64,000 nucleotides of DNA from a virus: positions 1 through 64,000 of IMG/VR virus record IMGVR_UViG_3300047509_000270; one strand, written 5' to 3'. Position numbers and translations under genes: made by a program. Below the pieces are notes generated by a model that saw nothing but the letters and a program-made list of their open reading frames with translations, had not been told where the DNA came from and ran no database searches. Below, in pieces: positions 7,546 through 42,080 of this stretch (the stretch's first letter is position 1; each line of letters begins with the position of its first letter).

Positions 7546-7552
7546 GCTCCAC

Positions 7553-7580
7553 AGTGTACACCGCGGTGCATAAAAGTCAA
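7553..7580 (-). promoter_or_regulatory. Sigma70-like promoter, leftward
   Basis: On the minus strand TTGACT (7575-7580), a 16-base spacer, then TACACT (7553-7558), about eight bases before the ATG of the zinc-ribbon gene. GTGTACAC (7554-7561), a shortened form of the repeated CGTGTACACG palindrome, overlaps the -10. Confidence 0.5.
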
Positions 7581-7589
7581 TATGGGAAA

Positions 7590-8228: not shown

Positions 8229-9007
8229 TTGGAATACCTCCTTAGGAATTCCAGGAATCGTCCTTCCGTATATGCCGTAAACAGCATGTGACTTGTCTCT
8301 GGAAAGTCACCCCCGAATGACCAGTGATCCTTCTTAAGAAAATGCGCGATCCTGGTCGACTCATTGTAGCAGAGGAATTGCGGTTTCCGTTCGAACCAGC
8401 CGACGATGTTCATCGACGAGTGGCACGTCACCATGGCTGTCGACCTCTGGAGGGCGACGACCGACCCTGGAACCGTAAGCTGGTCGATCAGATTGATGAC
8501 GCCTGTCGCGGCGAAAGACACTTCCCTCCTGGGGAACTCTTTGCCATAGCTGCGTCCTATCATTACTACTGGGATCCCAATCCGAGCGGCGACTGAGACG
8601 ACCGATCGGCAGATAGTTTCTGGGAAGCTCCGCGGATCGGAGCTTGCGGAGAATGACGCCAGTATGAACCGTCTCGGCAGGCTGTCGAGAACTTTGATAT
8701 CCCCTGAAGATGGGTAGTAGTTCAATGGGGTCGGGAGACGGTCAACGCGGTCCGGAACCTTCACCGGGAGGCCGACCTTCGCCCTGGCTCCAGCCTCCAG
8801 GAACTCGACGCTCCATGGTCGAATGATATTCATTCCGATCCGCGGTAGAGCGGGATGCTGATTGAAGAGCTCGTGGACATGCGGGTTGTGCGAATTAATG
8901 TGGATCCGGATGTTTCCGACCTCTCTGGACAGGAGATCGTAGGCGTCGGTCTTATGGAGGTGTAGGAAACAGTCTCCGAGACCTCCATGCATTTCGATTT
9001 CGATCAC
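8225..9007 (-). CDS. GT9-like (heptosyltransferase-type) protein, 260 aa
   Basis: N-terminus MIEIEMHGGLGDCFLHLHKT carries the GG-LGD motif of ADP-heptose/GT9-type GT-B enzymes. The middle shows RRFILASFSASSDPRSFPE and VVMIGRSYGKEFPR, like the second Rossmann domain. VALQRSTAMVTCHSSMNIVGW resembles the donor-binding DSG/H-S loop of that family. No membrane segment. Overlaps both neighbours by four bases, within an operon of sugar-transfer genes. Confidence 0.7.
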   Translation of the reverse strand: MIEIEMHGGLGDCFLHLHKTDAYDLLSREVGNIRIHINSHNPHVHELFNQHPALPRIGMNIIRPWSVEFLEAGARAKVGLPVKVPDRVDRLPTPLNYYPSSGDIKVLDSLPRRFILASFSASSDPRSFPETICRSVVSVAARIGIPVVMIGRSYGKEFPRREVSFAATGVINLIDQLTVPGSVVALQRSTAMVTCHSSMNIVGWFERKPQFLCYNESTRIAHFLKKDHWSFGGDFPETSHMLFTAYTEGRFLEFLRRYSK

Positions 9008-10740
9008 GGTTGCACCTCCAGAAGTCGGCTCGTTGCAGATGTCGCGGCAATATCCCAGGTAAGCTCTCTTCGAATCCGATCGTAGAAATTGTCGGCCTGC
9101 CGACGGACGAACTTGTCGCCGCTACGAACAGTCTCCAGCATGTCGGCAAGGACGCGGATCGATCGCTTCCCGAACCTCGAGAAGAGCATCCCCTTGTACC
9201 AGTCCGAGATCCAGTCGCCCTCCGGATAGACCTTCTCACCGTCCGGCTTGAACATCAGAGATTCGTAGAAGACCTCCGTGTGGGCCGTGTTGTTCGGGAC
9301 GACGACCGGAGTACCACAGGCACCGGCCTCTAGGGCTGGCAGGTTGAAGCCCTCGCCCCGCGAGGCCGACACGTAGGCGCCGACCGACGAGTAGATCCTG
9401 GCGAGCTCGTACTCGTCGAAGGAGCCCTCCAGCGTCCAGATCGGCACTTTGTAGCGGGCGAACTGTCTGTAAATCTTCTCCTTCCAGGCGGTCGGCGCGT
9501 GCGTCAGGCCAATTACGACCGAGACTTTCTTGCCGCCCGCGAACGCCAGCTCCGCGGCGTCGGCGAGCACGTCCCAGCCTTTCCGAAACCCAGGCAAGCC
9601 GATTGTCAGGAACGTGAAACCGTCCGGGACGCCGCGCAGGCCGCGTCTCGACGTCGAGATCAGGCGGCACTCCGGCAGCGGCTCCGGCTTTCGACGCGTG
9701 TAGACGAGAGGGTCGACGCCGAGACGCATGACGCGCATCGGCAACCGGACGCCGGAGTCCCGGAAGACCTCGATGTTCCAAGCGGTCGGCGTCCAGAGCT
9801 CGTCGAAGTTCTCGTTCGCTCGCTTCGCCATGTCCGGATGGACTCGGTGCGAGGACTCCTGCATCGTCCAGACGATCCGGTGGCGTTTCCCGGTCGTGAT
9901 ATGGTCCGGGCCCATCACGCGCAGGAGCGGCGCATTCGGACCGGCCAGGACGTGCTTGTGGACGTCGAGACGCGACCGGAGGTCCTCCGAGACGTAGCAG
10001 GGCTCCTTGTGCGTATCGTCGAGCCGGACCGATAGGGTGTTCGCGACCCTAAACAGGACCTCGCGGTTCATCTTTCCGTAGCCGGTGTACTGGTACAGGT
10101 GGCCGACCCAGACGACCTCTGGTCCGCGCTTCTTCGCGACAGGCGGCTTCGGCCGACTCTCTGTAGACAGGTCGGAGATCTTCGGCTCGACGGATGACTT
10201 GACCAGCGCGATCTTCTCTCCGAACGAGACGGCCGGGACTGCCACGATCGATCCGAAGACCGGCCGCATCGCGCTCTCGATCCAGCGCCAGTCGGGACCG
10301 AGGAACGCGAAGGCGACTTCCTTTGTCTCCGCCAGGGCGACGCAGAAGTTCACGGACTCGCGCCCAGGGTACGCGTCGTTCCGATGCAGCCAGCGATCGA
10401 CGAGACGCCGGGCGCCCGGAGTCGGTCGGATCAGAACGGCGTCGAGCGAGACGTTCCCGATCCCATCGAACTGCTTGGGCTTCGCCGGGATCGAGCCGAT
10501 CCGATCGACGCAGGCTGCGACGTCGAAGTCTCTCGCCTTCAGTCGATCGTAGACCGGTGCCGTCGCGACCCGGCCACCAGGGGCGACGTACAGGAAGCAG
10601 TCGTGCTCGTCCGGGAAGTGCTTCATGGCGTCAGCGAGTGCGGCGGCCGGTGACGGTCCGGCAACCACCGCGCGCCACGTCACGCCCTTCGCGCGGTACG
10701 GCAGCGGCGGCGGGGCGCCTTTGAATGTAACGATGATCAT
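9004..10740 (-). CDS. Two-domain glycosyltransferase (GT-A-like + GT4), 578 aa
   Basis: Residues 1-180 look like a GT-A nucleotide-sugar domain (ALADAMKHFPDEHDCFLYVAP; NVSLDAVLIRPTPGARRLVDRW; ESVNFCVALAETKEVAF). After a linker rich in K/P/R, residues 207-578 form a GT4 (GT-B) domain: VVWVGHLYQYTGYGKMNREV, then TPTAWNIEVFRDSGV, FLTIGLPGFRKGWDVLADA, and the E-x7-E motif in SRGEGFNLPALEAGACGTP. Such tandem enzymes add successive sugars. Its end overlaps the start of 8225..9007. Confidence 0.85.
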   Translation of the reverse strand: MIIVTFKGAPPPLPYRAKGVTWRAVVAGPSPAAALADAMKHFPDEHDCFLYVAPGGRVATAPVYDRLKARDFDVAACVDRIGSIPAKPKQFDGIGNVSLDAVLIRPTPGARRLVDRWLHRNDAYPGRESVNFCVALAETKEVAFAFLGPDWRWIESAMRPVFGSIVAVPAVSFGEKIALVKSSVEPKISDLSTESRPKPPVAKKRGPEVVWVGHLYQYTGYGKMNREVLFRVANTLSVRLDDTHKEPCYVSEDLRSRLDVHKHVLAGPNAPLLRVMGPDHITTGKRHRIVWTMQESSHRVHPDMAKRANENFDELWTPTAWNIEVFRDSGVRLPMRVMRLGVDPLVYTRRKPEPLPECRLISTSRRGLRGVPDGFTFLTIGLPGFRKGWDVLADAAELAFAGGKKVSVVIGLTHAPTAWKEKIYRQFARYKVPIWTLEGSFDEYELARIYSSVGAYVSASRGEGFNLPALEAGACGTPVVVPNNTAHTEVFYESLMFKPDGEKVYPEGDWISDWYKGMLFSRFGKRSIRVLADMLETVRSGDKFVRRQADNFYDRIRRELTWDIAATSATSRLLEVQP

Positions 10741-23593: not shown

Positions 23594-25201
23594 ATGAGCT
23601 CGACCGTCGAGGGTCTCGACCGCGGCGTCTCCGGCACGTCGGCGACGCTCGAGAAGATGCACAAGCTGGTCGCGCTCGGCAAGCTCGACCCGACCATCCA
23701 AAAGATCGCGACCTGGATCCGTCTTTCCGTTCCACAAGATCGTCGCGGCAAGACGACCGACACGGCCGACGCGATCTTCCAGTGGACCAAGGACCACGGG
23801 ATCTTCCAGTCGGACCCGTTCCAGATCGAGAAGATCGAGCATCCGATCGAGGCGATGCGCGCCGTCATCGAGAGCCGTCAGAACGGCAGCTACTCCGGCC
23901 CCGGGCTCTTCGTCGGCGACTGCGACACCTTCGCGGTCTTCGTCGCGTCGCTCGGCGGCGTGCTCGGCTTCCAGTACGCCTTCGAGACCGCGAAGGTCGA
24001 CGCGAGCCGTCCGGACGAGTTCTCGCACGTCTGGACGTCGCTGCTCGTCAACGGCGACTGGTACCCGCTCGACTCGTCGACACCGGGCGCCTATCCAGGC
24101 TGGCGTCCGCCGGTCGCGCCGGAGCTCCTGGCGCGTTGGCCGGAGCATCCGATCGAGGACGTCGTCGGGAGGTCCGAAATGAGCTCCATGAATCGAGGTC
24201 TCGGCGACGCCGACAACAATGCCTCGCCGCTCGCCGACGTCGACGCCGCCTACCCGAAGGACTACGTCGCCTACGGGATCCCGCGGGACTTCGGCGCCGG
24301 GCCCGGCGTCATTCCAGTCGCGAACTTCGACAACATCCAGCTGCTCCCACCGCACGAGACCCAGATCCCAGATGCCGACCTCCAGCCGGACATGCACTTC
24401 CTGAAGGCGGCGCCCCTGGTCAATCCGTCCGAGCGGATCCAGTCGATCGCCGGACAGCCCGACGACCACGGGAACCCCTACTACAACACCAAGGGCGGCG
24501 TGCCGCCCTACTACAAGGTCCAGCGTCAGTTCTACCCGCCCGGCTCGCGTTGGAACGGTCCGATGGGCGAGGACACCGTCCGGTACGTCAAGACCGGCGC
24601 GTACGTGAAGGTCAAGTCCGGTGAATCACCCGAGAGACAAGTGAGGACGAACATGGGACAGCCGATGACTCTCAAGCGCCGCAACGTCATGGTCACGCCG
24701 CGCCGGGTACCGTACGGCGCGATGGAGGGGTACGGCATGGGCGACGACGTTCCCGGGATCGTCACCTCGCTCGACACGCCGTCGGACTCGACCTCGCCGG
24801 AGGTCGCCGCGACGACCGCGCAGACCTCCGCACCGACCTCCGACTGGCAGAGCACGCTGGTCACGAACAACCAAGTCGCCGCGCCGACGCCGACGTCCGC
24901 GGCGAAGTCCTCGCCGACCGCCTCCGCTGCCGCCGCGGGCGGAACCTCGGTCTGGGACTCGATCTCGGCCGCCTTCAAGGCGGTCGGGACGGTCGCGCCC
25001 GTCGCGCTGCAGTCCTCGCTCGCGCAGTCCGTCATCAACGCGACGAACAAGCTGGCCGGGAAGCAGGTCCTGGCGCCCGGCACGACGGTCCCCTGGTACC
25101 TGAACCCCGTCACGCTCGGCGCGCTCGCCCTGATCGGCGGCGGCGCATGGTACATCACGTCGAAGTCCCGTCCCGGCAGCCGTCGGAGCCGCCGTCGATA
25201 G
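23594..25201 (+). CDS. Transglutaminase/papain-fold protein with C-terminal membrane anchor, 535 aa
   Basis: The start MSSTVEGLDRG follows GGAGG by six bases. Residues about 35-175 form a transglutaminase-like core: GLFVGDCDTFAVFVASLGG (Cys110), EFSHVWTSLLVNG (His145), WYPLDSST (Asp160), a complete Cys-His-Asp triad usable for proteolysis or crosslinking. A long region with Ala/Thr/Ser linkers follows. The C-terminus is PWYLNPVTLGALALIGGGAW plus a basic tail RRSRRR, that is one membrane helix. Position at the head of the virion genes suggests a structural or maturation enzyme; it is my candidate processor for the Asn-Pro-jointed protein downstream. Confidence 0.8.
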   Translation: MSSTVEGLDRGVSGTSATLEKMHKLVALGKLDPTIQKIATWIRLSVPQDRRGKTTDTADAIFQWTKDHGIFQSDPFQIEKIEHPIEAMRAVIESRQNGSYSGPGLFVGDCDTFAVFVASLGGVLGFQYAFETAKVDASRPDEFSHVWTSLLVNGDWYPLDSSTPGAYPGWRPPVAPELLARWPEHPIEDVVGRSEMSSMNRGLGDADNNASPLADVDAAYPKDYVAYGIPRDFGAGPGVIPVANFDNIQLLPPHETQIPDADLQPDMHFLKAAPLVNPSERIQSIAGQPDDHGNPYYNTKGGVPPYYKVQRQFYPPGSRWNGPMGEDTVRYVKTGAYVKVKSGESPERQVRTNMGQPMTLKRRNVMVTPRRVPYGAMEGYGMGDDVPGIVTSLDTPSDSTSPEVAATTAQTSAPTSDWQSTLVTNNQVAAPTPTSAAKSSPTASAAAAGGTSVWDSISAAFKAVGTVAPVALQSSLAQSVINATNKLAGKQVLAPGTTVPWYLNPVTLGALALIGGGAWYITSKSRPGSRRSRRR

Positions 25202-25207
25202 GAACGA

Positions 25208-25489
25208 ATGAACCGTATCGTTTACGTCCGGAGACCCGGCCTGAGCGGCGTCGGCGACGTCACCTCGTCGATCACCGACGCGGCCGTCGCGTCGATGACG
25301 CCCGCGATCCGCGACATCATGATCAACGACGTCGTCCCGATGCTCGGCGTCTTCATGATCGCAGGCGCCGTCTCGGCGGCGTTCATCGGGACGTGGTTCG
25401 GCCACCGGGCCCAGCGCAACTACTCCGGTGTCCGGAGGAATCCGGTCGCCCGCACGCACGTCTCGCTTCGTCGCCGGAGGACCGCGTGA
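25208..25489 (+). CDS. Membrane protein with RRNP tail, 93 aa
   Basis: MNRIVYVRRPGLSGVG opens the protein, then a hydrophobic span VPMLGVFMIAGAVSAAFIGTW (residues about 45-65), then a basic tail with SGVRRNPVARTHVSLRRRR. The Arg-Arg-Asn-Pro motif is shared with the next two genes. The N-terminal VRRPGL also opens 37825..39129 (MRYVRRPGLGF). Its TGA overlaps the GTG of the next gene. Confidence 0.6.
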   Translation: MNRIVYVRRPGLSGVGDVTSSITDAAVASMTPAIRDIMINDVVPMLGVFMIAGAVSAAFIGTWFGHRAQRNYSGVRRNPVARTHVSLRRRRTA

Positions 25490-27861
25490 GAGTCGCGAAG
25501 AATCCGCCGTCCTTCATCCTGGTCGACAAGGAAACCGGCGACGTCGTCTATACGAAGCGTGCGACCGGTGTCGGCTCCGAGGCGATCCGTAAGTGCGTTG
25601 AGAAGGGCCGCGCGCTCACCGCTCGGACCGGCCGGACCTACTTCGTCTACCTCGACATCATGGGCGCGAAGGTCGGTATGAAGCTGTCCGTGCCGATGGC
25701 GTACGCTCTCGGGATCACCGAAGAGATCGGTCCCAAGGGAAGCGCGATGCCGTCGGGTCGTAAGTGCTGCTTCGCTCCGGACGTGCGTCCGTCCGGACAG
25801 GGGATGCGTTGCATGAATTGCCAGCGTTGGGAGGCCGACAACTACCTGAAGAATCCTCGCCGCGCGCCGGTCCGTCGGAATATCTACGCCTTCAACAATC
25901 CGCCGTCTGGTCCGGCCGATCCGACTGCGGCGCGCGAACTCGAGCTGTATATCAGCAACGACTCGCAGCTCTACCATTCGCAATTCATCCCGATCGTGAA
26001 GAACCTGATGCTGAAGCGTCGGAAGGGCGTCTACAACCGTGAGCTGACGGTCAAGCTCTTCATGTACCTGATGGATGCCGGTGCGAAGAAGTACGTGAGG
26101 GAGTTCGGAACCGGCGGGAACATCGACACGATGTTCAACAAGAACACGCGCATGGCCGCCGCACGCGCCTTCCGTGACTCCTTCGAGACCGAAGCCGAGC
26201 TCGGGAACTACGACCGGATGATCGGACCCGTCTCGAATCCACTGAACCGCAAGGAAGTCGCTCAGGTCATCAACATGTCGAGAGATATCGCCAGGACCGC
26301 CATCAGAGCGAAGAAGCTCGGCGATGCCAGTCGAGCGAAGGCGAACCTCGCTTACGGTCGAGGGATGCTCGACGTCTCGATGACGTTCTCGCCGCAGGGC
26401 ACCCGTAAAGGTGTCAGAAACATGCTCGACCGGTACAACACCATCGAGCGTCGTGAAAGCTCCAGGAGCAATCCGTCCATCCGCGAGAACATCTACACGT
26501 TCAATAATCCGCGCAAGCTCAACGCGATGGAACGCGCCGCTTCGCTCTTCAACCTCTCCGTTGCGACCTGGGCGCCCGGCGACGGCCTGACACGCTACCG
26601 TTTCTTCAAGGCGTCCGGACATGGACCGTACGCCGACTACCACCAGGGTGGCGCGATCTATACGGCGAACGGTCGCGGCGAGGCGATAAAGTTCCTGAAG
26701 GCGTACGGCGTCGGCCGCTCGCGGATGAATCCGTCGCCGCACGATCCGTCCGGACTCGCCGAGCTCGACGCGCGCATGAACGACCTGATGCGTCGCATGG
26801 ACGCGATGAAAAAGAGCGGGACCGACAACCGTCCCGAATACATGATCCTCCTGAAGGAGGCTCAGGCGGTCTCGCAGAAGCGTCTCGCTCTGATCGGCCT
26901 CGGGTCGACCTCGATTCAGAAGGGCTTCACGCGCCGGAACCCATGCTCGAATCCGACCTGCAGGATCAAAAAGCACGGACACGTCCGTCAGAACCCGATC
27001 CTCCAGACGATCTTCCTGGCGAACCCGCCGATCTCGGCGCAGTGGGACCGACTGACCGGCCGCCAGCGCCTCCAGGTCCTCGGCTTCGTCGGCTTCGAGG
27101 AGACCGCCAGCCGGTACGTCCGGCTCCCCTGGAAGCTCCTGTCGAGCATGGTCAGGGAAGCCCTCGAGCAGTACTGGCTCGACTCGACGTCGACGCGCGG
27201 CACGACGCGCCGTCGGATGGCGCCGGTCGGCGCGAATCCGCTGACGCGCCGTGAGGCAGGCAGGATCATCGGCGAGGCGAAGCGCGACATCCGATACGGC
27301 TCCGGATTCCGCTCCGGAGAATTCACCCGTACCGTCAGCGCCGGACAGGCGTTCGGGAAGTCGAAGGTCGTCCGGAAGTACGGCCCGAAGAGCGCCGGAC
27401 GTGCCGCGGCGAAGATCGCCGACAAGGCGCACAAGATGGCCGGGACGATCTTCTCGAACCCCGGCGTCAGCCTCCCGCGTCCCGGCACGAAGCTGACGAT
27501 CTCCCAGGCGCTCGACCTCGCCGAGCGTCTCGGTAACCGCGAGCTCGTCAAGCAGTGCCACGCGGCGATGAAGCTCCAGAAGGCCGCCAACAAGGACGCG
27601 AAGTGCGTCATCTGGAAGGTCTTCCCGATGGGCTCGAAGGACAAGATCGACTCGGTCGTCGCCCTGACGCACTACGGCGACTCGCCGGAGACGATGTACA
27701 AGCCGCCGCCCGGCTCGAAGAAGGGCAACCACATGTACCGGCACAACTGGGGCGAGAAGGGCGGCAAGCAATCCGTTCCGCTGCTCGCCTCCCCGGACGG
27801 CAAGATGCTCATGATGCCGCTCGAGGGCCGGAAGGTCGCGTCGGACTGGCTGAGGCATTGA
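25486..27861 (+). CDS. Multi-module protein joined by x-Asn-Pro motifs (putative polyprotein), 791 aa
   Basis: A GTG start at 25486 follows GGAGG by six bases. The chain alternates compact modules with Arg/Lys-rich joints carrying N-P. Asn-Pro occurs near residues 6, 123, 138, 251, 329, 341, 415, 485, 489, 503, 513, 584 and 658, in contexts such as LKNP, FNNP, RSNP, RMNP, RRNP, RQNP and FSNP. Modules: 8-118 (with CMNCQRW zinc knuckle), 140-248 (all-helical, ELELYISNDSQLYHSQFIPI), 253-325, 343-412, 417-480, 514-580, 586-655 and 660-791. The phrase RNIYAFNNP / ENIYTFNNP is repeated. No overall family known to me. Looks like a set of small virion proteins fused, perhaps cleaved at the joints. 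Confidence 0.7.
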   Translation: MRVAKNPPSFILVDKETGDVVYTKRATGVGSEAIRKCVEKGRALTARTGRTYFVYLDIMGAKVGMKLSVPMAYALGITEEIGPKGSAMPSGRKCCFAPDVRPSGQGMRCMNCQRWEADNYLKNPRRAPVRRNIYAFNNPPSGPADPTAARELELYISNDSQLYHSQFIPIVKNLMLKRRKGVYNRELTVKLFMYLMDAGAKKYVREFGTGGNIDTMFNKNTRMAAARAFRDSFETEAELGNYDRMIGPVSNPLNRKEVAQVINMSRDIARTAIRAKKLGDASRAKANLAYGRGMLDVSMTFSPQGTRKGVRNMLDRYNTIERRESSRSNPSIRENIYTFNNPRKLNAMERAASLFNLSVATWAPGDGLTRYRFFKASGHGPYADYHQGGAIYTANGRGEAIKFLKAYGVGRSRMNPSPHDPSGLAELDARMNDLMRRMDAMKKSGTDNRPEYMILLKEAQAVSQKRLALIGLGSTSIQKGFTRRNPCSNPTCRIKKHGHVRQNPILQTIFLANPPISAQWDRLTGRQRLQVLGFVGFEETASRYVRLPWKLLSSMVREALEQYWLDSTSTRGTTRRRMAPVGANPLTRREAGRIIGEAKRDIRYGSGFRSGEFTRTVSAGQAFGKSKVVRKYGPKSAGRAAAKIADKAHKMAGTIFSNPGVSLPRPGTKLTISQALDLAERLGNRELVKQCHAAMKLQKAANKDAKCVIWKVFPMGSKDKIDSVVALTHYGDSPETMYKPPPGSKKGNHMYRHNWGEKGGKQSVPLLASPDGKMLMMPLEGRKVASDWLRH

Positions 27862-27871
27862 GGGTGAGACC

Positions 27872-28978
27872 ATGATCGGAGCACTCGTATTCGCGAACCC
27901 CGGGCGGCCTGTCGCCGCACGGAGGAGACGTTCTCGTTCCAGAACCGCCCGCACGACGGGCAAGGAGATTCGGATGGCACGCTCCCGTACGCGCCGTCGG
28001 GCAGGGCGGCGTATGAGAAATGCCAAGGGGCATTTCGTCAAGGCACGTCGGTCGTCCCGGCGTCGTCGCAACCCCAGCGGTCACATCAAGGTCGGTCGCC
28101 GCTGGAGGAAGATCACGAAGTTCGCCACGCGCCGCAAGCGCGGCAAGCATCGCGGACAGATCCGTGGCTTCCACTTCCCGAAACGCTACCGCCAGAGCCG
28201 TCGGCGTCGGGTTCACGCGAACCCGGTCGTCGTGTCGAATCCGCGTCGGCGTCGGGCCCGTCGGAACCCGTACCGCAGCCATCGTCGCCGGTACGCCCGC
28301 CGGAACCCCGCGGTGTCGTATCGCCTGTCGAGCGACCCGATCGCGGCCCTGAAGAACGCCCTGATGTCGGCGTTCTCGATGGACACCCTCGAGACTCTCG
28401 TCCACATGGGCGTCGGCTTCGGCGGCGCCCTGACGCTGGGCAAGTGGCTGTACGTCCAGCCCTGGATGCCCGCCACGGCCGGTTCCGCGTCGTTCGTGAA
28501 GGTCGGCTCGACCTTCCTGTCGACGGCGGTCCTGACCGCCATGTCGGCCGTCCTGAAGCAGCCGCGCCTGACCGCGCGGATCCTGACCGGCGGCCTCTTC
28601 GCGACGCTCTGGCAGGGGCTCTCCGAAGCGGTCTCGGGTACCCAGGTTCAGCAGTACATCCCGACCCTGTCGGGCTCGCCGGAGACCGACGCCTTTCGCA
28701 AGGCGATCGAGTCCGAGGTCCTCAAGGAGCTCAAGGGCGGCGGCGTCCACGGCTACCTGCGTGCGGCCGGATCCGAGGGGATCTCGACGTACCTGCAGCC
28801 CGCCGGGATCAGCTACCTGCGCCCGGCCGGTTCCGAGGCGTACCTGACCAAGGTCAACACCGAGCGTGCGAACGCCGGGATGAGCGCCTACATGACCGAG
28901 GTCAACACCGAGATGGCGAATGCCGGAGTCGGTGACGACGACGAGTTCTCCCGTCGGGGGATGCCGGAGAAGTTCTAG
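27872..28978 (+). CDS. Arg-rich nucleoprotein-like and membrane-associated virion protein, 368 aa
   Basis: Residues 1-150 are extremely basic (for example RRRRSRSRTARTTGK) with RRNP, HANP and VSNP joints like the preceding protein; this suits DNA condensation. Residues 175-255 contain hydrophobic stretches (VGFGGALTLGKWLYV; VGSTFLSTAVLTAMSAVL; ILTGGLFATLW). The last 70 residues hold imperfect repeats (GYLRAAGSEG, SYLRPAGSEAYL, TKVNTERANAG / TEVNTEMANAG) and end RRGMPEKF. An internal ATG at 27974 has a better RBS (AAGGAG) than the first, so two products are possible. May be a core-like protein tying genome to membrane. Confidence 0.65.
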   Translation: MIGALVFANPGRPVAARRRRSRSRTARTTGKEIRMARSRTRRRAGRRMRNAKGHFVKARRSSRRRRNPSGHIKVGRRWRKITKFATRRKRGKHRGQIRGFHFPKRYRQSRRRRVHANPVVVSNPRRRRARRNPYRSHRRRYARRNPAVSYRLSSDPIAALKNALMSAFSMDTLETLVHMGVGFGGALTLGKWLYVQPWMPATAGSASFVKVGSTFLSTAVLTAMSAVLKQPRLTARILTGGLFATLWQGLSEAVSGTQVQQYIPTLSGSPETDAFRKAIESEVLKELKGGGVHGYLRAAGSEGISTYLQPAGISYLRPAGSEAYLTKVNTERANAGMSAYMTEVNTEMANAGVGDDDEFSRRGMPEKF

Positions 28979-29022: not shown

Positions 29023-29148
29023 CTCCCCTCTGGAGGCCCTGATGGACCTCCCGAGGGGAGTGGGCTACGAGCGCCAGCCTGCCCAGCGGCATTTTTGTGG
29101 ACGAAAGTCCCGGCCGGAAGTGGCGCGCGAGACTGAAAGGTGGAAGAC

Positions 29149-29787
29149 ATGGCGAACGGAGCCGCGCCCGCGGACCAGGGCGTGACGGTGGTCCAGCCCT
29201 ACTACAAGATCACCCAGGGCGTGCCTGCGGCGATCGTGCGGTCGTACAAGGAACCCCTGTACGACTCGGAAGTGATCCTCGCCGCGACGCCGTCGCGCGA
29301 GTTCACGCTGTACCAGAAGCCCGTCGGCCAGAGCATGAACGACGGCACGGTGAAGACGTTCCTGTATTCGAATCAAACGCAGGCGGGGTCCTTGGGCACC
29401 CCCTTGAGTTTTGACGTGTACGGGTTCAATGCCCGCGTCTGGGCGTCGCCGTCCTCGAAGATCCTCTCGATCGGCAACTACACGCTCGTCGAAGCGGCGG
29501 GCGTGTCCGAGGTGATCTTCGGCCAGGACACGAAGTTCCTGACCATTCCGATCGAAGACGTCCCCGCGGGCGTCGACACGGAGGGTCTGGGCGCGACCGA
29601 CGCGCCGCACATCGGCTGGGGCGTCAGCGATAACATCTACCGGTTCGACATCGGTGGACGTGCGCTGCACATCAACTCGACGGAGCCGTACTCCGTCAAG
29701 ATCAGCTGGCCGAGCGGCCTGACCGGCACGACCGGCAACCTGCTGTTTCGGTGGTTCATTCGGGGTATCCGCTACAAAGGCGTCTAG
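29149..29787 (+). CDS. Probable single jelly-roll capsid protein, 212 aa
   Basis: ATG at 29149 with AAAGGTGG upstream (a GTG three codons earlier is possible). No hydrophobic segments; nearly all beta: VTVVQPYYKITQG, SLGTPLSFDVYGFNARVW, NYTLVEAAGVSEVIFGQDTK, RFDIGGRALHINSTEPYSV, and a final strand LLFRWFIRGIRYKGV. The final-strand pattern (x-F-x-x-G-I-x-Y) recurs in both halves of the next protein. Hairpins on both sides of the gene fit a very abundant message, so this is a leading candidate for a major capsid protein. Structure prediction would decide. Confidence 0.65.
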   Translation: MANGAAPADQGVTVVQPYYKITQGVPAAIVRSYKEPLYDSEVILAATPSREFTLYQKPVGQSMNDGTVKTFLYSNQTQAGSLGTPLSFDVYGFNARVWASPSSKILSIGNYTLVEAAGVSEVIFGQDTKFLTIPIEDVPAGVDTEGLGATDAPHIGWGVSDNIYRFDIGGRALHINSTEPYSVKISWPSGLTGTTGNLLFRWFIRGIRYKGV

Positions 29788-29809
29788 AGCGCCTTTCGCG
29801 CGCAACTTC

Positions 29810-29833
29810 GGACGCACTCGCGAGAGTGCGTCC
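29810..29833 (+). terminator. 10-bp hairpin with GCGA tetraloop
   Basis: GGACGCACTC (29810-29819), GCGA, GAGTGCGTCC (29824-29833), 22 bases after the stop of the capsid gene. No U-run, so possibly an mRNA 3'-end stabiliser or partial terminator between capsid genes. Confidence 0.6.
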
Positions 29834-29918
29834 CTTGATGGGCCCGAAAGACTAGCAACAAGCGCCCGCACTGTGCGCGGTCCGCTTCCCTGCTGAGATA
29901 GCTCGGAAGGAGACGACG

Positions 29919-30863
29919 ATGAGCTGGGGTCAGGTACCGACATTCCTGCGCGACAAGGATTCCGGCAAGATCTACATGAACCCGGCGAAGGACTGGGTTC
30001 AGCCATTCGAGCTGACGGTCTCGAAGCCGAACCAGCTGATCCACCTCGCCGCGGGCGAGAACCGCGGGCCCTTCCCGCTGACCGCCCAGTACGACGGTCC
30101 GATCGAGTGCTTCTACGTAAAGTGCAACGTCTACGCGCCCGCCGACGATCCGACGCTGCCGGGCGCGCTCGTCCAGACCTACGACATCGACTTCCTGCTG
30201 GAGCATCCCGGCAAGCGGATCCAGTTCTCCAATCGGAAAGTTCCGCTGATCGCGCTCTCCGGGAATGCCGCGCAGCCGTACGTCCTGCCGGAGACGATCT
30301 TCATCCCGCCGGTCCAATCGCTCAATCTGACGCTCGTCAACAACGACCTCGTCAACGCCCGCTTCGTCGAGTTCGTCCTGGGCGGCATCAAGTTCTACCC
30401 GAACATGGCTCCGGCCGGGGCGATCAAGGACGAGGTCTGGAAGTACGTCGACCGTCGCGAGCGGACCTACGCCTACTTCCAGACGACCGACGAGCCGGTC
30501 GTCCTGACGGCGGGCCAGGAGAACATCTTCTTCATGACGATCCCGGACAACTCCGACTTCGAGTGCTTCAAGCTGACCCAGCAGTCGACCGGCCAGTTCC
30601 GCTGTCTGGTCCGGGACGGCCAGAACGATCGCGCCCTGACCGGCGACCGGGTCCACCGGGACCTGCTGTTCGGCGGGCACGCCGAGATGCCGGACGGTGC
30701 GGGCGCGTTCCTCGGGTCCGGTGGGATCTGGCCCGCCCGCTGGGCGGCCTCCTGGCTGATCCGCCGCTCGACGAAGGTCCAGCTCGACCTGCTGGACATC
30801 TCCGGTGCGGACAACACGATCAAGCCGGTCTTCGCGGGGAGAAAGATCTCGTATGTCAGCTAA
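29919..30863 (+). CDS. Probable double-jelly-roll capsid protein with internal duplication, 314 aa
   Basis: The ATG follows GGAAGGAGACGACG. All-beta, with two similar halves at a constant 152-residue offset: GPIECFYVK (60-68) against SDFECFKLT (212-220), and SLNLTLVNNDLVNARFVEFV (134-153) against KVQLDLLDISGADNTIKPVF (286-305), each ending in GGIKFY or AGRKISY. LAAGEN (43-48) likewise matches LTAGQEN (196-202). Two tandem jelly-roll-like domains in one chain are the hallmark of double-jelly-roll major capsid proteins of tailless viruses. Its end overlaps the next gene. The fold is inferred. Confidence 0.65.
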   Translation: MSWGQVPTFLRDKDSGKIYMNPAKDWVQPFELTVSKPNQLIHLAAGENRGPFPLTAQYDGPIECFYVKCNVYAPADDPTLPGALVQTYDIDFLLEHPGKRIQFSNRKVPLIALSGNAAQPYVLPETIFIPPVQSLNLTLVNNDLVNARFVEFVLGGIKFYPNMAPAGAIKDEVWKYVDRRERTYAYFQTTDEPVVLTAGQENIFFMTIPDNSDFECFKLTQQSTGQFRCLVRDGQNDRALTGDRVHRDLLFGGHAEMPDGAGAFLGSGGIWPARWAASWLIRRSTKVQLDLLDISGADNTIKPVFAGRKISYVS

Positions 30864-36748: not shown

Positions 36749-37828
36749 ATGCGAGTCTACGCCGAACCCGGCTACGGTCTCAGCGACATTGAGACCGAGG
36801 CGCTCCGGCGACTTTCGCCGCGCTCGCGCGCGCTCATTCTCGACGAGCTCGGTCATCCGGACTCGCACGGTACGATCCAGTGGGTCCTCCGTCAGCGTGA
36901 TCCGGAGAGAGCTCTCGCGAATGCCGTCGCCGAGAACGTCCATCAGGCGACTATCGATGTGGCGGCCGGAGGTCTCAGTGACGGGCTCGGCCGAAGCTTC
37001 TTCAAGAGGCTGGCGAGACTCCACCGGAAGATCTTTAACCGACTTGATCCCATCCGGAAGATCGCGTTCGGAGGGAAGAAGAAACACCGTGGCGGAGCTC
37101 CGATCGTGTCGCAACCCGCAGCTGCAGCCGCAACTCCCGCTTCGACGGACGCCTCGTCCACTCCTCCACTTCCCCCTCCTCAGCCTCCGCCTCCTCCTCT
37201 ACCGTCACCCGTTACATACGCCGCGCCTCCGGACTCCACGTCCTCGTACTCTCCGCCGCCGCAGGGTCCGGTCAACTACGTCCAGGAGCAGCCGCCTCCC
37301 GACGTCGCGTCTCCGCAGGCGATGCCGCCCGACGCGCCGCCGGTCCCGCTTCCGGCGCAGGTCGCGCCTCCTCCGACGCCCGCGGCGGCTCCGTCGTACG
37401 CGGAGAGCACCGACGAGACTACCGGACTCCCGTCGGCTGGCGGCTACACGCTGACTGTCGAGGGCCAGACGATCACGAACTATCCGGTCCCGCTCGGGAC
37501 ACTCTCGTCGCTCGTCCAGTCCGGAACGCAGCCCGGAGATCGTTTCGAGATCCTGGCCGACGGCGTCGGGACCGGCCTCCGCGTCCGGACGGCGGGCGGC
37601 TTCATCGCGATCCCGGACTCGATCCGCGCGCAGGTCATGGCGATGCCGCACGATCAGGTCCTCGCGCTCCTGACGCAGGCCGCTGCGAACGTCGCCGCGG
37701 CGGGCGGTCCGGACGGTCCGGCGCCGGTCCCGACGCCCGCCAGCTCCGGCGGCGGCACGACGGCGGTCCTGCTGGCGATCCTGGGCGGCGGCGCCGCCCT
37801 GGTCGCGTCGAAGGGGAAGCGTCGGTGA
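36749..37828 (+). CDS. Virion membrane protein: Pro-rich linker and C-tail anchor, 359 aa
   Basis: N-terminal helical domain (LSPRSRALILDELGHPDSHG), basic middle (FGGKKKHRGG), a long Pro-rich linker (about 138-215, including PPLPPPQPPPPPLPSP), a small beta domain (YTLTVEGQTITNYPVPLG) and a C-terminal helix TTAVLLAILGGGAALVASKG followed by KRR. One of a series ending in a Gly-rich membrane helix plus basic tail. Probably anchored in a virion membrane and reaching the capsid through the Pro-rich rod. Overlaps the next gene (GTGA). Confidence 0.6.
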   Translation: MRVYAEPGYGLSDIETEALRRLSPRSRALILDELGHPDSHGTIQWVLRQRDPERALANAVAENVHQATIDVAAGGLSDGLGRSFFKRLARLHRKIFNRLDPIRKIAFGGKKKHRGGAPIVSQPAAAAATPASTDASSTPPLPPPQPPPPPLPSPVTYAAPPDSTSSYSPPPQGPVNYVQEQPPPDVASPQAMPPDAPPVPLPAQVAPPPTPAAAPSYAESTDETTGLPSAGGYTLTVEGQTITNYPVPLGTLSSLVQSGTQPGDRFEILADGVGTGLRVRTAGGFIAIPDSIRAQVMAMPHDQVLALLTQAAANVAAAGGPDGPAPVPTPASSGGGTTAVLLAILGGGAALVASKGKRR

Positions 37829-39129
37829 GGTACGTCCGACGTCCCGGTCTCGGCTTCACGATCCCGGTCGACCCGACCGCCGGTCAGCGTGGCGGCGCGC
37901 CGATCACGTATCCGGGATACCAGTGCCAGATTCGCTACCTCGCCGACGGGACTGTTCAGTCGAACGGGACATCCGTCCGCCATACAATGGCGGGAGCTCC
38001 GTCCTGCGATCTGTCGTCTGGATGGGTCGACTATGACTTGTCGAAGCCGTTCAACGGCCTGAAGAAGTGGGTCGACGGGATCGAGTTCCAGTACAACGCC
38101 GTCGGTGGCGCCGGATTCATGGCGACGCCGATCGGCTGGAACATGACGACCGACGGTCAGCGTGAGTTCGGCGCCCGATCCGCCGCCCAGCGCGCGTCCG
38201 GCTCGTCCGCGGACGGGAGCCCCTACGCGCCTCTGCCTCCTGGAGTCGAGCAGACGACGCCGGTCGATCCACGGAACGTCAGCGATCCGGTCATGATGGA
38301 GTACGCCATCGCGAAGGACGCGGCCAGCCAGCACGCGCCGAGCGCGATCTACAGGATCTACGATCCGTTCACCTGGAAGGGCTATCAGGCGCTCCCGGAC
38401 GGCTTCCTGGAGCCGCAGGACGGCGGCGTCTGGGTGCTCGCCTCCGACAACGTCCTCGACGCCGTCCAGAAGCAGTTCGGCATCATGAAGGATCCCTGGT
38501 ACTGGATGGTCGCGACGCATCCGACGACCGGACAGCTGAGGCTCTTCCTGGCGGCCCGCGATCCGTCCCGGAGCACGATCTGGAGCAAGCTCGGCAAGAC
38601 CGGACCGCTCGTGATCTCGATCCTCGGGACCGTCCTGGCGCCGTTCACGTTCGGCGCCTCGTCCGCCGTCGCCGCCGTCGTCGACACGGCAATCGCGCTC
38701 GAGCAGAAGAAGGCCGCTGCGGCTGCCGCGGTACGGGCCGGAGACCATCAGGCCGCCGTCATGTCGCAGCAGGTCGCCGACCAGGAGGGTCAGGTCAACC
38801 AGCAGGCCGACGCGGTCTACCAGCAGAATCAGACCGCCTTCCTGGCGGCCGGATACACGTCGGACAAGTGGGCGGCCCTGACGCTCGACCAGAAGACGGC
38901 GCTGATCCAGCAGGCCGCCGCCGGTCAGCTCCAGCCGACGCCCGCCGCGGTCGCGGTCGCGCAGCAGACCCAGCAGGCGCTCGATCAGGCCGTCCAGGAC
39001 GCGACCGTCAAGGCCGGACTCGGCGTTCCGTCGACGCAGGCCGCGACGTCGTCCGGTGGGATCGGCTGGCTGCTCGCGATCCTGGGCGGCGGTGCCGCGC
39101 TCGCGGTGGCGGGCGGGAAGAAGCGATAG
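37825..39129 (+). CDS. Virion membrane protein with C-tail anchor, 434 aa
   Basis: GTG start (MRYVRRPGLGFTIPVD). The N-terminal 200 residues are beta-rich (GYQCQIRYLADGTVQSNGTS; WVDYDLSKPFNGLKKWVDGI). A hydrophobic segment PLVISILGTVLAPFTFGASS follows, then a long Gln/Ala-rich helix (about 290-400), then the anchor GIGWLLAILGGGAALAVAGG plus KKR, nearly the same as in the preceding protein (LLAILGGGAAL), suggesting shared ancestry or interaction of the anchors. Confidence 0.6.
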   Translation: MRYVRRPGLGFTIPVDPTAGQRGGAPITYPGYQCQIRYLADGTVQSNGTSVRHTMAGAPSCDLSSGWVDYDLSKPFNGLKKWVDGIEFQYNAVGGAGFMATPIGWNMTTDGQREFGARSAAQRASGSSADGSPYAPLPPGVEQTTPVDPRNVSDPVMMEYAIAKDAASQHAPSAIYRIYDPFTWKGYQALPDGFLEPQDGGVWVLASDNVLDAVQKQFGIMKDPWYWMVATHPTTGQLRLFLAARDPSRSTIWSKLGKTGPLVISILGTVLAPFTFGASSAVAAVVDTAIALEQKKAAAAAAVRAGDHQAAVMSQQVADQEGQVNQQADAVYQQNQTAFLAAGYTSDKWAALTLDQKTALIQQAAAGQLQPTPAAVAVAQQTQQALDQAVQDATVKAGLGVPSTQAATSSGGIGWLLAILGGGAALAVAGGKKR

Positions 39130-39738
39130 ATGGACCGGAACGTCGCGTACGCCCAGGCCCTCGCTACCGCCATGGCGGCCGACATCAGCTCACCTGCCGT
39201 CGCTGCCGCTCTCCAGAACGACGCCCTGACACGAGACCAGTTCACGTCGATCGTCTACCGGGACGTCGCGAAGGGTCTCCGCGGCGATCCGGGACCGGCG
39301 ATCTTCCCGAACGTCCGGGCGTTCGCCCGGCAGGTCGTAGACATCGGTGTCATCCGGACGAGAAAGTCGACCGGTCTGTCCGACACCTACTCGTCCGACA
39401 TCGGCGGAATCTCGGGACTCGTCGGCGCGATTGCCGGTGCGGTCGGCGCGATCTACAGCACGAAGATCAATACGGACGCCCAGAAGCAGCTGGCAACGAT
39501 CAAGGCGAACGAGGCCCAGATCGCGCAGAACTCCCAGACGATCGCCGCGAAGTCGGCCCTGATCCAGAACGCCACGTCGAACGGACTCCTCGTGGCGCCG
39601 ACCGGCTCGCTCGTCGATCCGTCCGCCGGGATCGTCACGGCCGGTCCGCTCGCCGCAGTCGGAGGACTTCCGGGCGTCGCGATCGGGACGGCGGCGATTG
39701 CGGTGCTGGTCGGCGGCTACTATGCGATGAAAGGATAG
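39130..39738 (+). CDS. Virion membrane protein with two hydrophobic segments, 202 aa
   Basis: Starts directly after the previous stop. Helical N-terminus (AYAQALATAMAADISSPAVA), a Gly/Ala hydrophobic segment (GGISGLVGAIAGAVGAIYST, about 98-117), a Gln/Ala/Asn-rich coiled region, and a C-terminal anchor PGVAIGTAAIAVLVGGYYAM. Resembles DNA-delivery or tube-forming membrane proteins in layout only. Confidence 0.55.
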   Translation: MDRNVAYAQALATAMAADISSPAVAAALQNDALTRDQFTSIVYRDVAKGLRGDPGPAIFPNVRAFARQVVDIGVIRTRKSTGLSDTYSSDIGGISGLVGAIAGAVGAIYSTKINTDAQKQLATIKANEAQIAQNSQTIAAKSALIQNATSNGLLVAPTGSLVDPSAGIVTAGPLAAVGGLPGVAIGTAAIAVLVGGYYAMKG

Positions 39739-39741
39739 ACC

Positions 39742-40668
39742 ATGCGTACGAGACACATCCGTCCCGTCCCGAGGCCCCGCGTCTTCCGCCAGGATCCGAC
39801 GATCCAGGTCAACGTTGCGACGATGATCCCGGACGGGATGCACGGCTACCACGACGAGGGCTGGCGCAGCGCGACGCTGATTCCGGACGGGATGCACGCG
39901 CACATGGTCGCCGACGACACGGCCTTCGCGACCGAGCCGGTCATCGCGAAGCTCGTCGTGAACGGGATGTCGCACGAGGAGGCCCGCTCGGTCGTCTGGG
40001 ACGCAGCCGAGCGAGTCCGGTCCGGTGCGACCTCCGGTCTCGGTATCGCGATCATGGTCGACAAGCGCGCCGCTCTCGACGCCGTCTTCCAGGACCTCCT
40101 GGCCCGCGGCATCTCGCCCGACCGGGCCAGGATCCTCGTCCACCGGGCGGCCATGCGCCGGGCCGGTCTGGCCGGACTCGGCGACGACGCGGCCGATGCC
40201 GCAGCGGCGGCCCGCCTCGCGGCGATCTCGGCCGCCGCGAAGGCCGCCCAGAACTCACACCAGTCGATGATCGCGAGCATGGCATCCTGGGAGGAGCGCG
40301 AGCCCGGCTGGGTCACGACCGACGACAACCTCCGCCTGAACTTCCAGGACCAGCTGACGGCGCTCGAGAACAATTTCGTCGCGAACGCGCTCCCGACGCT
40401 CGGCGTCGAGTTCCCGTACCAGATCGACCGGACCGATCCGGCCGGTGCGATCGTCCTGGCGGTCCGGGACGACATCCAGAACACGATCGACCTGCTCGAC
40501 GCCCGGAAGTCCCAGCAGGTCCTCCAGAAGACGATCTCGGACCTGTCGAAGGTCCCGCTGCCGTCGGCGCCGCCCAGCTTCAGCCTGAACCTGCCGGACG
40601 TCCCCTGGTACGTCTGGGCGGGCGGGGCGGGCGTCGGCCTGCTGGCGCTCAAGCAGATGCTCAAGTAG
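39742..40668 (+). CDS. Virion membrane protein with GYHDEGWR motif and C-tail anchor, 308 aa
   Basis: The N-terminus contains PDGMHGYHDEGWRSA and a second PDGMHAHM. The motif GYHxEGWR is shared with capsid protein 30853..31578, with near-identical DNA. The middle is Ala-rich and helical, with HEEARSVVWDAAERV and RARILVHRAAMRRAG as two similar helices. The C-terminus LPDVPWYVWAGGAGVGLLAL plus KQMLK is a membrane anchor. May link membrane and capsid. Confidence 0.6.
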   Translation: MRTRHIRPVPRPRVFRQDPTIQVNVATMIPDGMHGYHDEGWRSATLIPDGMHAHMVADDTAFATEPVIAKLVVNGMSHEEARSVVWDAAERVRSGATSGLGIAIMVDKRAALDAVFQDLLARGISPDRARILVHRAAMRRAGLAGLGDDAADAAAAARLAAISAAAKAAQNSHQSMIASMASWEEREPGWVTTDDNLRLNFQDQLTALENNFVANALPTLGVEFPYQIDRTDPAGAIVLAVRDDIQNTIDLLDARKSQQVLQKTISDLSKVPLPSAPPSFSLNLPDVPWYVWAGGAGVGLLALKQMLK

Positions 40669-40754
40669 GGGGTGAAAAGTCGATTCCTGCACAGTAGAAT
40701 AGTTCAGTCACGGCGGGTCGCGCCGTGGCGGGGTGGAAGAAGAAGGAGATAGGT

Positions 40755-42080
40755 ATGCCGAACAACAAGCCGCAGCTGATCGACATGATCCGGACGGTCC
40801 CGGAGGTCGCCGTGAGACTCTGGGCGGGCGGCGTCCCACGTCCATGCGACGACGGCGTCCGGATCGAGTTCGAGGACCGCGCGCCGGTCTTCCACGGGGA
40901 CATCTACCAGGAGGCCGTCAAGGTCGCTCGGGTCCTGGCGATCCGCTGGGGCGGCCGGAAGCTCCGGACGATCCAGGACGTCCTGGACCTCCGGCACGCC
41001 GCCGAGGACGCCTTCATCGACCAGCTCTTCCAGAAGGGCGATGTCCCGTCGACGCTGTTCGTTCCGGCCGGTGAGACCGCATCCGGCTTCTACCGGGCGA
41101 TGATCCCGTCGGACCTCCTGAACGAGGGCGGACGCGTCGTCTCGCAGTGGACGTCCCGGCTGGACGTCTCGAAGGCGCTCCGGTACGACGTCCTCTGGAT
41201 CCAGCTGATCACGTCCGACGTCCTGACCGAGATCGCCCGTCAGGCGCAGTCCCAGGGCGTCCGGATCGTCTACGACCTCGACGACCGGCTCGACGCGATC
41301 CCCGACGAGAATCAGGCGAAGACCGTCTACGGGACGCCGGAGAAGCAGGCCGAGATCGACGCGATGATCCGCGTCGCCGACATGGTCACGGTCACGACCG
41401 AGCCGCTCGCGGCGCACCTGCGCCGGAAGTATCCGGGCAAGCTCGTCCGGATCCTTCCGAACATGGTGACCGCGAACGTCGCGCCCCGCCGCCAGCCGCC
41501 GAATCCGGCCTTCGTCCGGATCCTCTGGGCGGGCTCGGCGACGCACAAGCGGGACCTCGCGATCATCGCCCCGGCGATCGGGACACTCCTGCGCGAGCGG
41601 GCCGGGAAGGTCCGCTTCACGCTCTTCGGCGAGCGCCTGCCGGAGGCCCTGAAGGACTGCTACGACCTGATCGACCTGAAGAGGCCGGTCGACTTCGCCG
41701 ACTACCACGACGCGCTCGCCGAGTGCGCCGCGGACTTCGGGATCGTCCCGCTCGAGGCGAATGAGTTCAATACCGGCAAGTCCGGCCTGAAGGGTCTCGA
41801 GTACGCCTCGGCGGCCTATCCGCTGCTCTGCTCTCCGGCCGCCGAGTACCCCGCGCTCGTCGAGGCCGGGTTCCCGGTCGAACTCGTCGCCGACGGCGAC
41901 TGGCTGCCCGCGCTCCGGCGGATGGTCGACCGGACGCACGACGAACGGACCGCACTCGGTGCGGCGGCGCTCGACTGGGTCTGCCGGAATCGCTGCATGG
42001 GCAAGAACCACGCGGACCAGTGGGCCGACGCGATCTGCGAGCTGGTCGCGTCGAAGCCGAAACTGGAGACGGTGCGCTGA
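40755..42080 (+). CDS. GT4-family glycosyltransferase, 441 aa
   Basis: The start MPNNKPQLIDMIRTVPEV follows AAGGAGATAGGT. A GT-B fold is indicated: VVSQWTSRLDVSKALRYDV, VRIVYDLDDRLDAIPDE, ADMVTVTTEPLAAHLRRKYP, VRILWAGSATHKRDLAIIAP and the donor-site helix TGKSGLKGLEYASAAYPLLC. Family 4 retaining enzymes use nucleotide sugars. Unlike the other GTs it sits inside the virion block, so it may glycosylate a virion protein. A small hairpin CACGGCG/CGCCGTG (about 40710-40728) and a TAGAAT box lie upstream. Confidence 0.85.
   Translation: MPNNKPQLIDMIRTVPEVAVRLWAGGVPRPCDDGVRIEFEDRAPVFHGDIYQEAVKVARVLAIRWGGRKLRTIQDVLDLRHAAEDAFIDQLFQKGDVPSTLFVPAGETASGFYRAMIPSDLLNEGGRVVSQWTSRLDVSKALRYDVLWIQLITSDVLTEIARQAQSQGVRIVYDLDDRLDAIPDENQAKTVYGTPEKQAEIDAMIRVADMVTVTTEPLAAHLRRKYPGKLVRILPNMVTANVAPRRQPPNPAFVRILWAGSATHKRDLAIIAPAIGTLLRERAGKVRFTLFGERLPEALKDCYDLIDLKRPVDFADYHDALAECAADFGIVPLEANEFNTGKSGLKGLEYASAAYPLLCSPAAEYPALVEAGFPVELVADGDWLPALRRMVDRTHDERTALGAAALDWVCRNRCMGKNHADQWADAICELVASKPKLETVR

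Follow-up and report, generated by a model that had tools for sequence, protein, structure and literature searches.

Small protein modules joined and shuffled at Asn-Pro sites in a candidate polyprotein of a bacterial virus

The chain gene and its neighbors

The window, i.e., the whole analyzed stretch of 64,000 nucleotides of viral DNA, carries at 25486..27861 a gene coding for a 791-residue protein chain. The gene starts with GTG, overlaps the stop of the preceding gene and, like all the features described below, lies on the plus strand. The initial annotation had counted 13 Asn-Pro (NP) sites in this NP-jointed modular chain; we found the same number, compared to a mean of 2.3 and a maximum of 8 in 2,000 shuffled copies. 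About eight modules of 60-130 residues had also been proposed. Splitting at NP did produce eight long segments, of 70-134 residues, along with pieces of 4-15 residues. The phrase NIYxFNNP, said to occur twice, was present as NIYAFNNP and NIYTFNNP.

An NP at residue 6, behind a 5-residue N-terminal peptide, opens Module 1 (PSFILVD; 25501..25851, residues 6-122), which ends in a Cys4 zinc-type tail and has homologs in relatives L011, L012, L013, L007, and L014. The short linker NPRRAPVRRNIYAFN (25852..25896) has an NP on either side and represents the linker VRKNI[FY]xFNN conserved in the family. Module 2 (PSGPADPTAAREL, helical; 25897..26235, residues 138-250) has homologs in L011, L012, L013, and L015. 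Module 3 (26236..26469, residues 251-328) and Module 7 (27235..27456, residues 584-657; cluster 1) are two copies from the NPL[TN]RxE family, whose 20 members occur in one to three recognized copies per protein. The short linker NPSIRENIYTFN (26470..26505) precedes Module 4 (WAPGDGLTRYRFF; 26506..26727, residues 341-414), which belongs to a family present in relatives and has a stand-alone copy without NP in the unrelated contig L027. Module 5 (26728..26937, residues 415-484) is a singleton cluster, found so far only in the window genome. It is followed by a zinc-knuckle-like segment CSNPTCRIKKHGH (26938..26991, residues 485-502), with the pattern C-x4-C...H-x-H kept in relatives, and by the short linker NPILQTIFLA (26992..27021), a form of the NPLLQT[VI]xxAN(P) linker present in all nine homologs. 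Module 6 (PISAQWDRLTGRQR; 27022..27234, residues 513-583; cluster 2) and the C-terminal module (27457..27861, residues 658-791; cluster 3) were both found in 9/9 relatives.

Upstream, the gene 23594..25201 codes for a 535-residue protein with a transglutaminase-type Cys-His-Asp triad, a C-terminal membrane anchor and a basic tail. The triad residues named in the initial annotation, C110 (near 23921), H145 (24026), and D160 (24071), were invariant in 8/8 aligned sequences. The motifs GDCDT, HVW, and LD followed one another in this order, invariant in the eight sequences, as in transglutaminase-like cysteine peptidases (PF01841). We also observed that this protein was encoded just upstream of the chain in each of the eight relatives checked. 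The match to Transglut_core (PF01841) was weak, with the best E = 0.016 among three of the eight members; the window protein itself had no PF01841 match in the Pfam profile search and no sequence match in PDB. Based on the triad and the weak Pfam score, the protein may be a transglutaminase-fold cysteine protease, a candidate for cutting the chain.

Between the two genes, 25208..25489 codes for a small single-pass membrane protein. It had been described as ending in RRNP; the RRNP is present (NP near 25439), but a 14-residue basic tail, VRRNPVARTHVSLRRRRTA, follows it. Both NP and basic tail are kept in relatives, with the exception of N-Q-P in L014.

Downstream, the protein encoded at 27872..28978 has an Arg-rich (protamine-like) N-terminal half with six NP, as claimed before (27896, 28070, 28220, 28238, 28265, and 28304; 0.6 expected), and then a hydrophobic membrane-type segment. 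Five of the six NP are invariant in nine relatives, and the NP residues are 98% conserved compared to 73% over all columns. Further downstream (29140..30863) lies a conserved pair of capsid-candidate genes, 29140..29787 and 29919..30863, also present there in all the relatives. The model of the protein encoded at 29919 (mean pLDDT 48) gave weak, low-confidence jelly-roll-like matches to capsid proteins of STIV, PRD1, PR772, and giant viruses, too weak for assigning a capsid lineage. Among the window proteins scanned, a part of the gene set, no terminase, portal or tail genes were recognized; a HerA-type ATPase (55903) partially matched one PHROG named terminase. The virus is probably a tailless, membrane-containing bacterial virus.

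Pfam and PHROG searches with the window chain produced nothing significant, nor did INPHARED phage records match the chain, the protease candidate, the 215-residue capsid candidate or the Arg-rich protein. Searches in bacterial genomes with protease or capsid queries found no relatives, and Foldseek gave no match to the chain model (mean pLDDT 50). The linker NI[FY]TFNNP was considered as a wider signal and rejected, the three extra IMG/VR matches being chance short frames.

Exchange of modules at the NP joints

The comparison set consisted of nine homologous chains from related uncultivated bacterial viruses. When complete, these homologs are 608-1213 residues long and each is a different string of modules, so to speak, with 5-12 small proteins strung together in a chain across the virus group. 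The three C-terminal modules are constant in 9/9, while exchange among the relatives affects the N-terminal part.

In the nine related viruses, NP was the most enriched dipeptide (111 occurrences vs. 18.5 expected, z = 21.5; the runner-up had z = 7). Together with the shuffling results, these counts rule out chance or composition as the source of NP. At each relative's locus the NP-enriched genes were exactly the chain gene and the adjoining gene of the Arg-rich membrane protein. Lengths of the segments between NP were bimodal, either 4-15 residues or at least 32 residues (nearly all 53-152). The Asn of NP was conserved at 97%, compared to 52% for the remaining Asn residues. Also, 53% of homology ends fell within 5 residues of an NP vs. 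16% for random positions (a maximum of 24% in 500 trials).

Nearly every module opens with NP, often after a short linker, VRKNI[FY]xFNNP or NPLLQTxxxANP; modules unrelated to one another have NP and short linkers in common. Two insertions ran exactly from NP to NP. Where L015 reads FAANPPIS, L007 has a 101-residue module between FAANPP and KKNPPIS, and L013 has a 66-residue module between MLANP and RNPPIS. In both relatives the extra modules directly follow the NPLLQT[VI]xxAN(P) linker.

On the other hand, the basic flanks ascribed to the joints held for some sites only. Arg or Lys is found next to certain NP, but the constant part is NP alone, with Asn preceded at the 111 sites by S (23), K (16), N (16), A (14), and R (13), among others; basic flanks were therefore rejected as the joint motif. 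The residues around NP are more diverse than in a classical protease motif. Some joints have no NP, namely LLVRPTSRG in L011, VQSPPSF in L014, the zinc-type tail of Module 1, and the Cys/His segment of the KLKFSDL module in L013; in L015 the second NP is gone from two doubled joints.

We also found modules as separate genes elsewhere, in unrelated phages and on one plasmid, mostly without the joint NP. In the clearest case, the 66-residue insert of L013, a single NP-to-NP segment, aligned end to end with a 62-residue plasmid gene (54% identity, E 6e-10). Other modules had matches among small genes standing alone in mycobacteriophages, BcepSauron, phage JP1, and Pam2. Homologs of single modules were PHROG families 3207, 8217, and 2423 (DUF6496-like), as well as mycobacteriophage SirDuracell gene 138, BcepSauron_064, JP1_122, and Pam2_180, several of them over the whole length. 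Homologs of the variable modules in tailed phages sit among small genes with function unassigned. In tailed phages these accessory genes are separate and mostly lack NP joints, whereas here proteins of this kind are fused into one chain. A zinc module of L012 had a weak Lar-like restriction-alleviation match, with E = 0.17, which we did not count as evidence.

By sequence comparison, then, the chain is modular and shuffled at NP joints. The shuffling at NP, the stand-alone homologs and the exact NP-to-NP insertions strongly support the initial view of small modules joined at NP. A continuous fold crossing the NP sites, which would have spoken against it, was not seen: in the structure model, weak overall (mean pLDDT 50), 13/13 NP were in low-confidence predicted coil and none was inside a helix or strand.

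Possible processing of the chain

We consider it moderately likely that the chain is a polyprotein of small interchangeable accessory proteins, which the adjacent enzyme would cut apart at NP or in its vicinity while the virion assembles, and which would probably be packaged for delivery. In the late (structural) gene cluster, accessory proteins that are small and fold on their own would be fused into one chain. This chain and the neighboring Arg-rich core-like protein would enter the nascent particle in uncut form, and cleavage at or close to NP by the putative transglutaminase-fold cysteine protease encoded next door would follow. The virion would then contain several small proteins that could be delivered to the host cell. 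We infer packaging into the virion because of the gene position. Most proteases disfavor Pro after the scissile bond; the true bond may therefore be elsewhere than at NP.

The main alternative, to which we give a distinctly smaller chance, is that the chain stays uncut and each NP serves as a docking or spacing motif, binding one common partner, be it the capsid, a membrane protein or the DNA core, and keeping the modules tethered. A constant NP with varying flanks looks like a short linear motif, the NP sites are in coil in the low-confidence model, and NP also occurs in the Arg-rich membrane protein. However, an NP is found after a 4-5 residue N-terminal peptide even without a preceding module, which fits a trimming site; this feature and the doubled NP with a short spacer fit trimming or excision better than tethering. 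The triad protein located just upstream in every sequence checked argues in the same direction.

It is also conceivable, though improbable, that the chain is cut and its products are structural parts of a core or matrix shell, like those of pp220 of African swine fever virus, rather than delivered effectors. The late-gene position beside the capsid candidates and the protamine-like protein would agree with this, as would the constancy of the three C-terminal modules. The variable modules, however, match a plasmid gene and small tailed-phage genes situated among small genes of unassigned function, and they are gained and lost quickly, unlike parts of a shell.

The exact entry of new modules at NP could suggest that NP is a mere scar of in-frame insertion of small genes at the DNA level, with no meaning for the protein. 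This is very improbable, as the codons of NP are mixed (AAT or AAC with all four Pro codons), so the constraint acts on the protein. The bias to AAT before Pro is identical in other genes; with the codon diversity, this rules out a DNA-level element at the joints. Moreover, NP is conserved long after insertion and also in the Arg-rich protein, which is not modular. Spontaneous breakage by side-chain attack, with no protease, is barely credible: Asn-Pro bonds are chemically labile in some conditions, but their cleavage is slow, the residues beside NP have no constant pattern, and the triad protein adjoins the chain gene.

Known systems and significance

Many eukaryotic viruses routinely make polyproteins that are processed; phrases describing a phage polyprotein were not found in the literature searched, with incomplete coverage. 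A comparable case is pp220 of African swine fever virus, a large and icosahedral virus that has a dsDNA genome and an internal membrane; this polyprotein is made late and is processed at maturation by a viral protease, guided by a small transmembrane protein. The products of pp220 are constant shell parts, whereas here the modules are shuffled, related to small phage genes and joined by a different motif, and we found no sequence relation to pp220. The Arg-rich DNA-binding precursors of adenovirus, cleaved in the particle by the adenovirus protease (PMC4246237), resemble the Arg-rich, presumably cleaved protein of 27872..28978.

In T4, the internal head proteins IPI, IPII, IPIII, and Alt carry capsid targeting sequences and are cut by gp21. 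The T4 internal proteins are small, poorly conserved and interchangeable, with a short shared head-targeting sequence removed by the maturation protease, and some of them act on host restriction (PMC9026906). T4 has separate genes and a serine protease, gp21, cutting after L/I-X-E; here there is one chain, with NP rather than L/I-X-E at the joints, and the neighboring enzyme candidate has a transglutaminase-type Cys triad. Unlike in T4, no tail genes were recognized among the window proteins scanned, and packaging is presumed for our chain.

We tentatively propose a broader reading, less certain than processing itself, in which the chain would be a swappable late-gene cassette and the first cargo polyprotein of a prokaryotic virus. 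Any small accessory protein could be added between two NP and packaged within the chain; a dedicated transglutaminase-fold protease would then release it inside the particle, and it would be delivered along with the genome as one of several separate effectors. Should cutting occur, a single gene would deliver an entire set of anti-host or accessory proteins in constant proportion, and the NP joint would offer a portable way to load further proteins. Each segment from one NP to the next in the chain family would then be a candidate host-takeover protein, available by a simple route of listing; some of these segments already match uncharacterized genes of mycobacteriophages and jumbo phages.

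A modular chain with Asn-Pro at most joints

The 791-aa product of the ORF 25486..27861 (the chain) contains 13 Asn-Pro (NP) dipeptides, the number given in the initial annotation, compared to a mean of 2.3 and a maximum of 8 in 2,000 shuffles of its own sequence. The repeated phrase NIYxFNNP was also found as described (NIYAFNNP and NIYTFNNP), as were the six NP of the Arg-rich neighbor at 27872..28978 (0.6 expected). Two other details had to be corrected: basic flanks are no general property of the NP sites, and RRNP is not the very end of the small membrane protein at 25208..25489, since a basic tail of 14 residues comes after it.

The virus record that contains the window has 70,898 bases. 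With four cluster genes as queries, searches retrieved eight related IMG/VR records of 22–73 kb, some of which are fragments; one contig (L005) stops inside the chain gene. The eight homologous chains have 458 (partial) to 1213 aa, with 9–16 NP each. Over all nine chains NP was the top enriched dipeptide (111 compared to 18.5 expected, z 21.5; 7.2 for the second-best dipeptide), and a scan of all coding-like ORFs showed that only the chain and the Arg-rich neighbor were NP-enriched in each relative's locus.

The chains are shuffled strings of small modules, and most of the joints carry an NP. Splitting them at NP gave short pieces of 4–15 aa along with larger pieces, nearly all of 53–152 aa; the NP-to-NP pieces formed about 19 clusters, some of which, cluster 0 above all, join unlike modules via a common linker. 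Three C-terminal modules were present in all nine chains, while others were gained or lost, and the NPL[TN]RxE family had one to three recognized copies per chain. Of the ends of local homology, 53% lay no more than 5 residues from an NP (45% with nearby ends merged), compared to 16% for random positions. For example, the joint between LLQT..ANP and PIS has no insert in L015 (FAANPPISAQW), a module of 101 aa in L007, flanked by FAANPP and KKNPPISIAW, and a different one of 66 aa in L013, flanked by MLANP and RNPPISTQW. Joints without NP were seen in L011, in L014 and ahead of some zinc-type segments; at each of two doubled joints in L015 one NP was lost and the other retained.

Where no module comes first, an NP still sits 4–5 residues from the N-terminus (VRVAKNPPSF, MRAAKNPPSF, SVRKNPPSF, MSARKNPPSF), a position easier to reconcile with trimming than with a simple linker. 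The Arg-rich neighbor likewise has a near-N-terminal NP (MIGALVFANPG).

Several modules have stand-alone homologs. The 66-aa insert of L013 is 54% identical to a 62-aa gene of an Alteromonas plasmid, whose first residue aligns 4 residues past an NP and whose end falls just ahead of the next. Other modules have counterparts in unrelated tailed phages, small genes that they match in full or almost in full. Residues 544–654 of L010 matched SirDuracell gene 138 (103 aa) and PHROG 8217; 314–366 of L012 matched mycobacteriophage gene 108 (Firecracker), weakly (tblastn E 0.04; PHROG 3207, 5e-8); 327–410 of L013 matched parts of BcepSauron_064 and JP1_122; and 266–309 of L014 matched PHROG 2423/DUF6496. 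The cluster-4 module had a weak match to Pam2_180 (E 0.2–0.3), and the TRYRFF module matched a 72-aa domain in an unrelated contig, L027. NP was not found in SirDuracell 138, JP1_122, Pam2_180 or the L027 copy; it is not strictly missing from all stand-alone homologs, since Firecracker 108 and BcepSauron_064 have some. In annotated neighborhoods these homologs sit among small genes of unknown function, away from annotated structural genes. The TRYRFF-domain gene of L027 (2405..3198) is seemingly split or duplicated about an HNH-type coding stretch. Zinc-binding Cys/His patterns occur in many modules (e.g., residues 94–122 and 485–502 of the window chain, 314–366 of L012, 280–317 of L013), one of which resembled Lar-like restriction alleviation proteins very weakly (E 0.17).

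Constraint on the Asn-Pro sites

In the chain alignment, Asn was 97% conserved within NP compared to 52% elsewhere, and Pro 86% compared to 64%; in the Arg-rich protein the Asn and the Pro of NP were each 98% conserved. In L014, the most distant relative, the Arg-rich protein retained two NPs despite growth of the spacer between them from 4 to about 30 residues. Asn at NP was coded by AAT (87) and AAC (81), all four Pro codons were used, and the AAT share before Pro was alike at NP sites and in other window genes (0.53 and 0.57). Judged from these sequences, the constraint acts on the protein. Over all window genes, AAT was favored for Asn before Pro (0.57), with AAC dominant before other residues.

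An AlphaFold2 model of the chain from nine sequences had a mean pLDDT of 50. All 13 NPs fell in segments with pLDDT below 50, which make up 56% of the chain; none was within a helix or strand, and two touched a helix's first residue. Because of these placements the model, itself weak, gave no continuous fold across the NP sites, the outcome set beforehand as evidence against a polyprotein.

Gene cluster and candidate protease

As far as each contig reaches, the relatives keep one gene order: protease-like, small membrane, chain, Arg-rich membrane, 215-aa and 314-aa proteins. Bacterial genome contigs had no relative for protease or capsid queries, and phage records had no match to the chain, the protease, the 215-aa protein (29140..29787) or the Arg-rich protein.

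The triad C110, H145 and D160 reported for the protease-like protein (23594..25201) was confirmed. GDCDT, HVW and LD were kept in all eight aligned sequences, and Pfam Transglut_core matched three members weakly (E 0.016). This protein is probably, as predicted from sequence, a transglutaminase-fold cysteine protease. PWYxNP stands immediately ahead of its C-terminal membrane anchor in seven of eight sequences (LSP in L014) and is a possible self-release site.

The conserved 314-aa all-beta protein (29919..30863) had a low-confidence model and weak matches to double-jelly-roll capsid proteins of STIV, PRD1, PR772 and giant viruses. Four successive late proteins at 36749..40668 have hydrophobic Gly-rich ends, mostly with a short basic tail (e.g., LLAILGGGAALxxxxGKRR), that resemble tail anchors for an internal membrane. 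Otherwise dissimilar proteins open with the same stretch, YVRRPGL, RYVRRPGLG or RFVRRPGLG (window 25208 and 37825; L005 12618), possibly a targeting tag. The HerA/FtsK-like ATPase (55903..57306) may not be the packaging enzyme shared by the group, since a clear homolog was found in only one of the eight relatives' records, some of them fragments, and a weak one in one more. Several glycosyltransferase-like genes lie, together with a methyltransferase-like match, at 5433..10740 and 40725..42080.

Predicted processing and known systems

The initial annotation had read the chain as a candidate polyprotein cut at its joints. The architecture supports the polyprotein reading well; processing is predicted, and would make the chain a kind of processed viral polyprotein. 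A literature search for phage polyprotein phrases, of incomplete coverage, found none. By analogy, the chain would work most like two systems combined: T4 internal proteins, which are small and variable and have in common a targeting sequence that the head protease removes (PMC9026906), and African swine fever virus core-shell polyproteins, processed by a viral protease (PMC9910796). It is, however, a member of neither, as no sequence relation to either was found and both motif and enzyme differ.

The locus combines shuffled small modules that mostly join at NP, an Arg-rich neighbor whose NP are conserved, and a triad protein just upstream of the chain. In the mechanism we propose, the chain would be brought into the assembling particle via its constant C-terminal modules, and the triad protein would cut it at or near NP. 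Short linkers would be taken out, and the variable modules would travel as individual small proteins, which may be delivered to the host. There is a fair chance that the chain represents a new cargo-delivery arrangement.
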